Made by a program: the position numbers and the translations under genes. The notes under the pieces are model-generated. The model searched no databases. It worked only from the letters and a program-made list of their open reading frames with translations, and was not told the origin of the DNA. Of a DNA stretch of 64,000 nt, positions 4,960 through 8,704 are shown one piece after another. Each line of letters begins with the position of its first letter. The first letter of the stretch is position 1. Source of the stretch: Porticoccaceae bacterium. GTDB taxonomy: Bacteria > Pseudomonadota > Gammaproteobacteria > Pseudomonadales > Porticoccaceae. The stretch spans positions 1-64,000 of the forward strand of contig CACETF010000008.1 of assembly GCA_902562425.1 (NCBI GenBank). Reading direction: 5' to 3'.

Positions 4960-6022
4960 TTAAAATGCCTCTTCATATCCAAATAGGATCTCATAGTTTG
5001 CACCTATTTGACGGTAATTTTTACTTTGTAGCAAAGGAATTAATAATTCAAAGCCAAGACGACCTTTTTTTCGTGTAAAAATTTGGCTATGAGGTTGATC
5101 CCAAGACCAAGGTACAGCATTTTTCCTCCATAATTATCTGTGTCAGCGGTCTGTATGGGAGCTAAAACTAGAGGATTTCTGCCCGTAATTTCATTTTCAT
5201 AATTAAATTTAAACCTACCTGATACGGATAATTGCCGGTAAAATTCATATTGCAGCCACGTGTTAAAGGAGTGCTCGCCACCAAATACCCAATCATCTTT
5301 ACCTACAGAAGCTTTCATGCGAACCTGATTTCCCCAATTCAAGTTATCGGTAATTTGTTTCACGTTAGTGAGATCAAGTGCTAATTTGGACGCGCCATCC
5401 CTCGGTTGCATGGCGTATGGAAGAACTATTTCTGCTATTTGTCCCATTGGGGTTACCATAGTGTCTTTGACATCTTTTTGGCCAAACGATTTTTGAAAAG
5501 TAATTTCTCCGTGTCACTTAGATTTCCTATCCTTTTTTAGACTAATAAGCGCACACATCATAACATTTCGAAAATCATTGGAAGATGCACTAAAACTACC
5601 AACTAAATTTCGACTCATCATTGCTTGATGAGTATTTAAATTCATATCCTTGGAGACATAATTAATCATACACATCAAAGTAATTTTGTCGGTTGGAGCA
5701 AACATAACTCCAACCATCGTCATCTGCATTTCCATCTCTTTGGGTATAACGGACAGCGAACTGGATGAGTACCAAAAGCGCTGGGCATTAACAGCACATC
5801 AGCATCCTGAGATAGCATTACCGTTAAAAATGTGCCCAGACATCCCCAGATGACTTTGTCGTGCTGATACTCCCACTCACCTTCTTTGTGGTAGTGGTTA
5901 AGTATCACTCTTATGGGGGCATGGTCAGTGGCTCTCTGAGCGCCCAATTAATCAGCGATCACATTAGGTCCCAGCATTATTATGCACAGCAACAAAAACC
6001 TCAAAGAGATGCCTAAAAACAT
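4960..6022 (-). pseudogene. Broken copy of the outer-membrane 'transporter' family gene
   Basis: Reading the minus strand from ATG 6022 gives a signal peptide (MFLGISLRFLLLCIIML...VIAD) cut at once by TAA (5948-5950). The frame then continues HAPIRVILNHYHKEGEWEY, shifts, and reads MTMVGVMFAPTDKITLMCMI and NTHQAMMSRNLVGSFSAS. It shifts again into TPMGQIAEIVLPYAM and NPLVLAPIQTADTDNYGG, reaches a stop at 5040, and after one more shift the true end IPLLQSKNYRQIGANYEIL ... EEAF appears, stopping at 4960-4962. All parts fit one protein of the same family as the fragment at 2-427. At least one nonsense and several frameshift lesions are present, so it cannot make a full barrel. Confidence 0.8.
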
Positions 6023-6103: not shown

Positions 6104-6367
6104 ATGACGAATCCATGCCATCAAAAAAGAGTTGCCTCATTACGAAGGATTATAGGGCAGATAAATGGGGTCATCAAGATGATTGAGTCGCGGGAATACT
6201 GCGTTGACATACTTAATCAGACTAAAGCTGCGAAAAATGCTCTGAAGACCGTTGAAACGAAGATCCTCGAAACGCACTTATCGCGATGTGTACATGAATC
6301 TTTTTCAAACACTGATGATGCAAATAAAAAGATTGAGGAGTTGATTAAGGTCCTTAAGAGAAATTAA
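6104..6367 (+). CDS. csoR: CsoR-family copper-sensing repressor
   Basis: The protein has 87 residues from ATG 6104, is all helical, and carries the family core LRRIIGQINGVIKMIE. The metal site of copper sensors is complete: Cys33, His58 and Cys62 have the spacing (25 and 4) of the mycobacterial CsoR triad, and Tyr32 and Glu78 fall on its second-shell positions. A copper(I)-responsive DNA-binding repressor is therefore predicted. The frame also opens at ATG 6044, but that would add 20 non-family residues over a G-rich tract (ggggg at 6066-6070) more likely to be operator DNA. It is divergent from the broken outer-membrane gene, its probable former target; no copper ATPase is in view. Confidence 0.75.
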   Translation: MTNPCHQKRVASLRRIIGQINGVIKMIESREYCVDILNQTKAAKNALKTVETKILETHLSRCVHESFSNTDDANKKIEELIKVLKRN

Positions 6368-6548
6368 TATTTGTACTATTTTGAGTATATTAAATCCAGG
6401 AGTTGTGGTTTAGATATAAATTTTATTTTTTTAATACGACAGTGTCCAAGAGGCAGTTTTTTAACCAAGTTTTGTATGTCTTGGGTTTGAGTGGCCTCCT
6501 CTCTCAATCGCGACGATGTTTTTGCGCAACTATTCAGTAGGAGATTTT

Positions 6549-7724
6549 ATGTCCATTTTTGGAAAAGACGAAGTTGCAATGCAGAAATTCTCGGCAACCC
6601 TTCCTCTGCCAGAATTCGACGAAGATAACTTCAATCGACCGAAGTCGCTCCAATTTGCGAAAGTGGCTATTGTAACTACTGCTGCCCTTTATCGAACTGG
6701 GCGCGATGGTTTTAAGTTAGGAGATAGTGATTTCCATTATGAGACGTTTTCGAGATTAGCAAGAGATTTGAAACTCGGACATCACAGTGTCAATTTTGAT
6801 CGAGGTGGGTTTGCTGCTGACATTAACGTGGTCTACCCTATTGACCGTCTTGAGGAACTACTTGAAGAAGGAGTTATCGGTGATGTTGCAGATAATCATT
6901 ATTCGTTTGCAGGAAACCAGCCAGCAACATTGTCAGAAATCCGGTTAGATTCTGGTCCTAGCTGTGCAAGGGAAATGATAAAAGAGGATGTAGACATTGT
7001 TTTATTGACAGGCACATGACCTCTCTGTCCGCGTACCGTGTGTACGCTAGCTCATATTTTTGAGGCAGCAGGGCTATCGAGTGTTGTTCTTACTCCGATG
7101 AGGGATATTGCAGAACGGATGAGAGTACCAAGAGCACTTTATACCGCTTTTCCGGTGGGTAGACCGTTGGGAAAACCGAGAGACAAAACATTTCAATCTG
7201 AAGTATTAAAGGCTGCTTTTTGTTTGCTAGAAGCTCCAAAAGGGCCAATTATTAGTGAATTTCCAGAGAGAATAAGTTCAGATGATGCTGAACCGTTGCT
7301 CTGTTCTCTTCCCCCCAGAGTAAGTACGAATTTGCATCCTGCTGTAGATGAGGCGCAAGCTTTGAGAGCCGCATATGATCGCGCCTTCAGGAAAACTAGA
7401 AGAACTTCTGTTGGAATGCAGATAGTTGCTGAAGAGGTACCAGAGGCGATTGAAAAATTTTTAAAAATTGCAGAGGGCATAGACTGGAGTGAGGCTGGAT
7501 TCTCTGCAGAATCAATTTACGGAACAGCGCATGACATACGCTCTTATTACGAAGAGATATGCTGTGAATTGGCCGAAGGGGAAATTGGTGCGTGGGCGAC
7601 TGAGGAGTGGTTTTACGACACTACTGCAGCAGGTCAGGTGATTTTGCAAGCCAGAAGAACCATGCGAGATAAAAATGTTGCGCAATCGATCTGGTTTGGA
7701 CTTGCTCCAGCAGGCAGAGAATAA
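6549..7724 (+). CDS. Probable selenoprotein: glycine/sarcosine/betaine reductase selenoprotein B-like (Sec at TGA 7017-7019)
   Basis: One frame runs from ATG 6549 (AGGAG at 6539-6543, five bases upstream) to TAA 7722-7724, interrupted only by TGA at 7017-7019. Read as selenocysteine, the product has 391 residues with Sec157 in DIVLLTGT-U-PLCPRTVCTL, a U-x-x-C redox motif. Both sides belong to the same family: before it comes VYPIDRLEELLEEGVIGDVAD, after it HIFEAAGLSSVVLTPMRDI. The family includes GrdB-related proteins in which related members, as I recall them, carry UPVC or CPVC here. A perfect SECIS-type hairpin follows the TGA (7031-7047). The downstream half has no Shine-Dalgarno of its own. 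The reaction is unknown; a thiol/selenol redox role is inferred. Confidence 0.8.
7031..7047 (+). promoter_or_regulatory. Bacterial SECIS element (selenocysteine insertion hairpin)
   Basis: The sequence GCGTAC-CGTGT-GTACGC forms a perfect 6-bp stem with a 5-base loop. The stem starts 11 bases after the TGA and the loop about 17. The loop has G at its second position followed by U, as required in known bacterial SECIS loops such as E. coli fdhF. It lies within the coding sequence, as bacterial SECIS elements do. Supports TGA 7017-7019 as a selenocysteine codon. Confidence 0.8.
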
Positions 7725-7777: not shown

Positions 7778-8704
7778 TTGCATATTATGCAACCGATTCA
7801 GAAAAAAACCTTTACCTCCGCGCATTTGGAGGAATGGTACCGAGATGGAGTCATTGTCGTAGAAAACTTTTTCAATAAGAGTGAAGTGGTTTCGGTTTTT
7901 GATACTTTCGTTGGTATGTATGGAGATAAAGGATCCGATATACATGATGACACCTCGCTCAACAGAGCAAGCTTCAAAAAGCAATTCGAATTTATCGATA
8001 TTTTACCATACTGCTCGGGTTTAGATTTAAATCTTATCTCCCTCCACCCTGACTTAATTAGCCTTGCTAAATCTTTGTTGAAAGTAGAGTCCGTTCATTT
8101 ATATCAATCTCACACTTGGGCAAAATTCACAGGTGCAACTAACTATGATCAGGCGTTTCATTGTGATTTTTCAAACCATACCTTGACTGTTCCTTCCTCG
8201 AAGCTAGGTTCAAGTACAGTGAATTTTCTAATTTATATATCCGATGTCCATGCAGACCTTGGAGCCTTTGAGTATGTTACAAGATCTGATGCGACAAAGA
8301 TCTTAGGTCCCGGAGTAGTGCAAATTTCAGAGAATTATAAAGCACGTCAGGCGCAATTATCCGAGTGCGCTAAGTCAGTGGAGGCGCCAGCAGGTTCACT
8401 GATTGTCTACGGACTTGACGTTTTTCACCGCGGCACTAATCTGATCCGCCCAAGGGGGTACCGTTACTCAATGACGGTCAGTTATAAAAAGTCAGGGGAT
8501 GATGCAATTGGATTTCATGTATGGCAGTCAAAAAAGGAAGGTGATTGGAATTTAATCTTTGAAAGCGCAACGCCATGTCAGCTAAATTGCCTGGGAGTGC
8601 CTCTACCCGGTGATGAGTTTTGGAATAAAACCACTATCAGCCAAACACTTGAAAGGTGGCCTAACTGGAATTCAGAGCCTTATGTATCAGCTTTGAAGCG
8701 ATAA
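7778..8704 (+). CDS. Phytanoyl-CoA dioxygenase (PhyH) family oxygenase
   Basis: The protein has 308 residues, a cytoplasmic double-stranded beta-helix oxygenase of the Fe(II)/2-oxoglutarate type. The iron ligands are visible: H128-x-D130 in AFHCDFSNH and H217 in DVFHRGTN. An Arg a few residues on, in the RPRGYRY stretch, could hold 2-oxoglutarate. The N-terminus EEWYRDGVIVVENFF is typical of PhyH. The frame opens at TTG 7778 with AAGGA six bases upstream; ATG 7787 is the alternative. It starts 53 bases after the selenoprotein gene on the same strand, so co-transcription is likely. Its tail overlaps the convergent ADP-ribosylglycohydrolase gene by 18 bases. Substrate unknown. Confidence 0.8.
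   Translation: MHIMQPIQKKTFTSAHLEEWYRDGVIVVENFFNKSEVVSVFDTFVGMYGDKGSDIHDDTSLNRASFKKQFEFIDILPYCSGLDLNLISLHPDLISLAKSLLKVESVHLYQSHTWAKFTGATNYDQAFHCDFSNHTLTVPSSKLGSSTVNFLIYISDVHADLGAFEYVTRSDATKILGPGVVQISENYKARQAQLSECAKSVEAPAGSLIVYGLDVFHRGTNLIRPRGYRYSMTVSYKKSGDDAIGFHVWQSKKEGDWNLIFESATPCQLNCLGVPLPGDEFWNKTTISQTLERWPNWNSEPYVSALKR

Follow-up and report, generated by a model that had tools for sequence, protein, structure and literature searches.

An in-frame TGA codon in a gene of a Porticoccaceae bacterium is almost certainly read as selenocysteine, so that, to judge from sequence comparisons, the product is a true selenoprotein, belonging to marine gammaproteobacteria in the vicinity of Porticoccaceae and the SAR92 cluster. 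The decisive evidence for the apparent recoding is comparative: the TGA codon and a SECIS-type hairpin immediately after it are conserved jointly, and the stem of the hairpin covaries. Both the recoding and the membership of the protein in the PrdB/GrdB superfamily appear well supported. The gene is an added member of a known marine selenoprotein family and not the founder of a new one, a conclusion that is also well supported. It very probably yields a full-length protein by SECIS recoding, which would act as a stand-alone selenol reductase with a Sec157/Cys160 pair.

The gene, its TGA codon and the downstream hairpin

The gene lies in a window of 64,000 nucleotides, which is the whole stretch of DNA that we analyzed. 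The relevant features of the window are as follows.

6104-6367, plus strand: metal-sensitive repressor gene (PF02583), presumably of the CsoR/RcnR type, upstream of the selenoprotein gene and also seen in four close relatives
6539-6543, plus strand: AGGAG, a Shine-Dalgarno-like site 5 bases 5′ of the ATG at 6549, read from the sequence
6549-7724, plus strand: predicted gene for a PrdB-like selenoprotein of 391 residues, in which read-through of the TGA would place Sec at position 157
6642-7229, plus strand: PrdB/GrdB-like core with the U-x-x-C site (residues 32-227, TIGR04483 match)
7017-7019, plus strand: in-frame TGA as putative selenocysteine U157, motif U-P-L-C in the context TGTUPLCPRTVC
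7031-7047, plus strand: bacterial SECIS-type hairpin, GCGTAC-CGTGT-GTACGC, with a perfect 6-bp stem and the 5-base loop CGTGT
7257-7721, plus strand: predicted helical domain at the C-terminus, ~150 residues long, from the alignment and a structure model, with no significant Pfam match
7787-8704, plus strand: PhyH-type dioxygenase gene directly 3′ of the selenoprotein gene, an adjacency that is kept in four close relatives but not in distant loci

Translated with TGA as U, the frame from the ATG at 6549 to the stop codon at 7722-7724 has the TGA as its sole break, and the original prediction was exact in the coordinates, frame, U-PLC motif and residue number that it gave for this codon. A plain list of open reading frames (ORFs) splits the gene in two, at 6516-7019 and 7038-7724. 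An alternative start at ATG 6516 is possible, but the AGGAG and the conserved start of the protein favor ATG 6549. The Shine-Dalgarno site that had been claimed for the first half is present, and upstream of GTG 7038, where the second half would start, no clear Shine-Dalgarno-like site was seen, again as claimed. Three TGA codons in the window are flanked on both sides by 100 or more open codons, and a hairpin follows only that at 7017-7019. The other two look like a normal boundary between genes and the upstream part of a gene of the sulfatase type.

In bacteria, a SECIS hairpin located after the UGA recruits SelB with Sec-tRNA. The hairpin in the window begins 11 bases 3′ of the TGA and is part of the minimum-energy structure (-8.8 kcal/mol). 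Its energy alone is unremarkable (z -1.55; 15 of 200 shuffles fold equally well), some such hairpin follows 54 of the 2323 TGA triplets on both strands of the window (about 2.3%), and no Rfam family matched when the 201 bases around the TGA were searched. A marine survey describes the bacterial SECIS as a hairpin just downstream of the TGA whose small apical loop contains a guanosine (PMC1088965), and this is the arrangement found in the gene.

Covariation was assessed in 22 TGA-bearing rows, 19 of them distinct, which comprise 14 orthologs (the window included) and eight distant sequences. Base pairs form in 85.7% of the stem cells, and in 19 cells both partners are changed; none of 500 shuffles reached the observed paired share, two-sided cell count or covariation score. 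This score is 0.436, versus 0.013-0.104 when the partner is slid by 1-3 columns. On two of the five covariation measures the alignment does not exceed the shuffles, namely the pairs with two-sided changes (69 of 500 shuffles as high) and the further pair types (197 of 500). The outermost of the seven tested pairs is unpaired in 15 of the 19 distinct rows, and the shared stem is therefore 6 bp long. Loop positions T23 and G24 are invariant across the TGA-bearing rows. Codon usage is also constrained here: within the hairpin, all 14 Sec forms use the same codons for R, T, C and T, and the top codon has a mean share of 0.86 there (7 columns) versus 0.60 in the 146 other columns with an invariant amino acid. 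The SECIS hairpin that had been proposed from the sequence folds where expected, covaries in its stem and is conserved together with the TGA in orthologs.

Orthologs, selenocysteine machinery and the exchange of Sec and Cys

Related loci were found 17 times in named genomes: 13 have the TGA, three have a TGT cysteine codon (L044, L045 and L047) and one is a fragment without the site. Their proteins are 63-93% identical to that of the window, and 16 of the 17 match over nearly the whole length. The related records are named after Porticoccaceae, the SAR92 cluster and Gammaproteobacteria, in keeping with the marine gammaproteobacterial host that had been proposed. In a codon alignment of 17 sequences, including the window, the codon is TGA in 14 and TGT in three. 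Homologs have Sec or Cys at residue 157, as the original prediction had anticipated. The codon counts, hairpin alignment and tree leave out L032, which has the TGA but also holds an N, and the fragment, L048; loci L021-L025 and L027-L029 are the window itself or copies of named loci and are excluded from the counts.

Both sides of the TGA are under constraint. Synonymous changes outnumber replacement changes before the TGA in all 16 comparisons with the window, and after it in 13 of the 16; the exceptions, as synonymous and replacement changes, are L043 (76, 86), L046 (76, 93) and L047 (81, 90). Between the window and L042, for example, there are 25 synonymous and 12 replacement codons before the TGA, and 33 and 24 after it. 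With TGA read as Cys, positions 157, 160 and 165 are invariant as Cys in an alignment of 16 rows and in a structure alignment of 14 rows (the window plus 13 of the 17 named loci). Several distant members (L049, L050, L053, L054, L070 and L073) have Ser at residue 165, and a role for Cys165 is therefore not general.

The three Cys forms make up one clade in the tree (support 99/98), and its sister is a Sec form, L043 (94/91). Support is weak at the next forks (83/83 or open), and the outgroup sits on long branches. The simplest reading of these sequences is that the Cys clade arose by a single Sec-to-Cys change. In all three Cys forms, G24 of the hairpin loop is replaced by T, and the stem keeps five of its six pairs (L044 and L045) or only three (L047). 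L043 and L047 are a syntenic pair of a Sec and a Cys form, on contigs of genomes G035 and G025, respectively; selA is present in G035 and was not found in G025. Two of the Cys forms, L044 and L045, are preceded by genes for an APH-type phosphotransferase and a sodium:solute symporter (grouped by clusters, with Pfam assignments taken from the L044 copies), and these neighbors are a possible lead to the substrate.

The original prediction proposed a search for selA, selB, selD and the tRNA-Sec gene, and all four are present in the genome of the window (2.24 Mb in 38 contigs, 89.6% complete). Contig 12 carries three of them as neighbors, namely selA, selB and a tRNA-Sec gene with the anticodon TCA (76.2 bits); selD is on contig 2. 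Among 58 genomes (this one and 57 relatives), selA was found in six of the eight that have the full-length TGA form versus nine of the 50 others (one-sided Fisher test 0.0025, kinship ignored). We did not find selA in G002 (81% complete) or G004 (92% complete), both of which have the full-length TGA form, or in G025 (94% complete), the sole Cys-form genome among the 58. One of the nine other genomes with selA, G057, holds a distant TGA copy, L030 (G057:C2, 20575-21165), which is a short PrdB-like gene with an in-frame TGA; selA lies on the other strand, ~330 bases away. A distant (35%) long PrdB-like gene with an in-frame TGA, L031 (G005:C59, 3008-4099), adjoins a selB-like gene that reaches the edge of the locus. 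The same contig holds a second selA, so that L031 is either a second Sec locus or contamination in that assembly.

A wider search gave matches in eight of 369 genomes of the class and 16 of 398 genomes of the phylum, with the window's own genome in both sets. An in-frame TGA occurs in eight of the 26 distant loci that were read, a set from which L061 was left out for its short flank. Long forms of 397-423 residues also occur among distant members (L031, L049 and L050), and L031 aligns through the C-terminal part. In viral contigs, 19 stretches matched a pattern, and none of them encodes a relative.

Family placement and partner subunits

The best profile match of the protein is the D-proline reductase subunit PrdB (TIGR04483; 109.6 bits, E 1.6e-31, residues 32-227), at a score well under the cut-off of 300. 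The general GrdB-type model TIGR01918 gives 60.1 bits (cut-off 65.45) and the glycine reductase GrdB model TIGR01917 gives 52.5 bits (cut-off 602.2), while Pfam family PF07355 passes its gathering cut-off (40.2 versus 22 bits; residues 10-156). The term “GrdB-like” in the original prediction is apt at the level of the PF07355 superfamily, but it is loose, since the PrdB model scores higher than the general GrdB-type model.

Comparison with the known members supports this placement and also sets the protein apart. Its Sec column coincides with the TGA column of the annotated prdB genes of Terrisporobacter and Peptoclostridium; a wider alignment of 15 rows with the window and these two genes has eight U and seven C in that column. 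PrdB thus shares the U-x-x-C motif with Sec in one alignment column, but has U-G-T-C where the new protein has U-P-L-C, and the 241-residue Terrisporobacter PrdB lacks the extra C-terminal domain. Moreover, we found no PrdA-type partner here, and the score is under the equivalog cut-off. GrdB of glycine, betaine and sarcosine reductases has the same reductase core, with PF07355 above its cut-off. However, the protein is under the cut-offs of TIGR01917, TIGR01918, NF040794 and NF040795, GrdB profiles are matched over only about their second half, and no PF09338 partner was found. Alphaproteobacterial proteins of Haematobacter and Roseomonas that are annotated as “glycine/sarcosine/betaine reductase selenoprotein B family protein” also share the core and have Cys at the Sec column, but they are about 300 residues long, with a shorter C-terminal part.

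The C-terminal domain is predicted to be helical, with a pLDDT of 78.5 for its structure model versus 67.7 for the full-length model. Pfam gave no significant match in 15 members of the domain. Cupin_6 was considered and rejected, as it was hit by only three of the 15 (best E 0.0035) and the window's own score is 16.2 bits versus a cut-off of 26.7. In a Foldseek search of the full-length model against the PDB, nothing was found at E 0.001 or better (best 5.8e-3). A sequence search of solved structures gave nothing at E 1 for the whole protein, and for the C-terminal domain only a chance-level match (E 0.72). The best VIA-align hits of the C-terminal model, among 599 aligned chains, are unrelated helical proteins (Z 3.6), and no trustworthy fold emerged.

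The pyruvoyl subunit family PF09338 was found in none of ten genomes carrying the gene or a related one, five of which are listed as at least 92% complete (the window's own is about 90%). This result is from a repeat search in which two clostridial plasmid records served as positive controls, and both matched. The searches with TIGR04480 and PF04723 and the first search with PF09338 had no control match and are not used; GrdA (PF04723) was thus not found, but in a search without a matching control. The original prediction held that the protein is unrelated to clostridial glycine fermentation, and the failure to find the pyruvoyl partner of the clostridial reductases agrees with this view.

We also found no widely conserved operon partner among the loci compared. 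Neighboring genes for a CsoR-type protein, a PhyH protein and an ADP-ribosylglycohydrolase are common to the four closest relatives (L032, L033, L034 and L042). They are absent at L046, which is in the same genus, and at other loci, except for one ADP-ribosylglycohydrolase gene in L045 and PhyH-type genes in L038 and L041. Given that these neighbors are confined to the four closest relatives, the genomic context does not indicate a function. Elsewhere in the window, the minus strand at 5040-5947 looks like a broken gene, in that its three short ORFs each match a portion of a single longer ORF (352 residues) in L033 (4406-5464).

Marine selenoproteins of this type are already in the literature. 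A survey of the Sargasso Sea in 2005 lists proline reductase PrdB, with a UXXC motif and 42 sequences, among its known families (PMC1088965). In its account of PrdB, the GOS survey of 2008 gives 235 Sec and 110 Cys forms with a UxxC motif and assigns them to pfam07355 (PMC2398784), the Pfam label that also applies here. Proline reductases are given as 6.4% of 4324 selenoprotein genes in a later survey (PMC9402790). In the passages available to us, the families of these surveys (PMC1088965; PMC2398784; PMC9402790) resemble ours in the U-x-x-C motif, the marine origin and the occurrence of both Sec and Cys forms, and the fusions named there do not include PrdB. Compared by motif and Pfam label, these families likely include the present long form. 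The original description of the selenoprotein as new does not stand, given that U-x-x-C selenoproteins of the PrdB type were published for marine samples as early as 2005 (PMC1088965; PMC2398784). A GrdB-like fluoroacetate reductase is treated in another paper (PMC10838667). Our literature search found no paper that names SAR92 together with a selenoprotein.

Possible function and alternative explanations

We propose that the SECIS hairpin just 3′ of the UGA would bring SelB and Sec-tRNA to the ribosome, which would insert Sec at residue 157 and not stop. Sec157 and Cys160 of the PrdB/GrdB-type core would then constitute a U-x-x-C redox pair. Sec157 may attack or reduce a small electrophilic substrate, after which Cys160 would close a selenenylsulfide and a donor of the thioredoxin type would reset the enzyme; we infer this redox cycle and its donor. 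Since neither a pyruvoyl partner nor a widely conserved operon was found, we infer a stand-alone selenol reductase, and the protein probably acts alone.

The two ORFs of the plain list (6516-7019 and 7038-7724) could suggest that the TGA is a real stop codon, a sequencing error or a sign of decay, with two ORFs or a pseudogene as the result. This is extremely improbable given that the TGA recurs in 14 of 17 aligned sequences, that coding is constrained on either side of it and the hairpin covaries, and that GTG 7038 lacks a clear Shine-Dalgarno-like site. It is also improbable, if less strikingly so, that the protein is a true subunit of a D-proline (or glycine-type) reductase whose pyruvoyl partner was missed through incomplete assemblies. 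TIGR04483 is indeed the best model, the Sec column is shared with annotated prdB genes and the genome is only about 90% complete. However, the scores are far under the equivalog cut-offs (109.6 versus 300 for D-proline reductase) and PF09338 was found in none of the ten genomes, for which reasons the protein probably does not function as a proline or glycine reductase; the lack of a widely conserved operon partner and the added C-terminal domain, absent from Terrisporobacter PrdB, also argue against this role.

A different question is which chemistry a selenol reductase of this type might perform. It is a real possibility, although not the one we favor, that the selenoprotein detoxifies peroxides or disulfides and does not cleave C-X bonds, an alternative that concerns only the proposed chemistry. 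U-x-x-C is a general thiol redox motif, the gene stands alone, and in L037 and L039 it comes after genes of the DsbD type and with thioredoxin domains (Pfam assignments from the L037 copies). By contrast, the models matched by the core are those of subunits that cleave amines reductively, the link to DsbD is seen in two loci only, and no good match to thioredoxin emerged from the Pfam and NCBIfam scans, the one NCBIfam match to a protein disulfide oxidoreductase having E 0.046 and 13.1 bits versus a cut-off of 185. More speculatively, the fused C-terminal helical domain might replace the pyruvoyl subunit, giving a self-contained, Sec-dependent enzyme that cleaves C-N, C-S or C-halogen bonds in oxic seawater; we regard this proposal as unlikely, though less so than a true proline reductase.

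The preferred reading, a recoded stand-alone selenol reductase, adds a supported selenoprotein that a plain ORF search cuts in two. The family also offers a natural experiment, in that syntenic Sec and Cys versions occur in one marine family and the Cys version has a damaged hairpin and no selA that we could find. Our results suggest that this branch, at least, of the abundant marine “proline reductase” selenoproteins is without a partner for the reduction of proline or glycine. On this evidence, the “proline reductase” label is no guide to its metabolism. If the protein were indeed a self-contained selenoenzyme, this label would be wrong for one of the commonest marine selenoprotein families.
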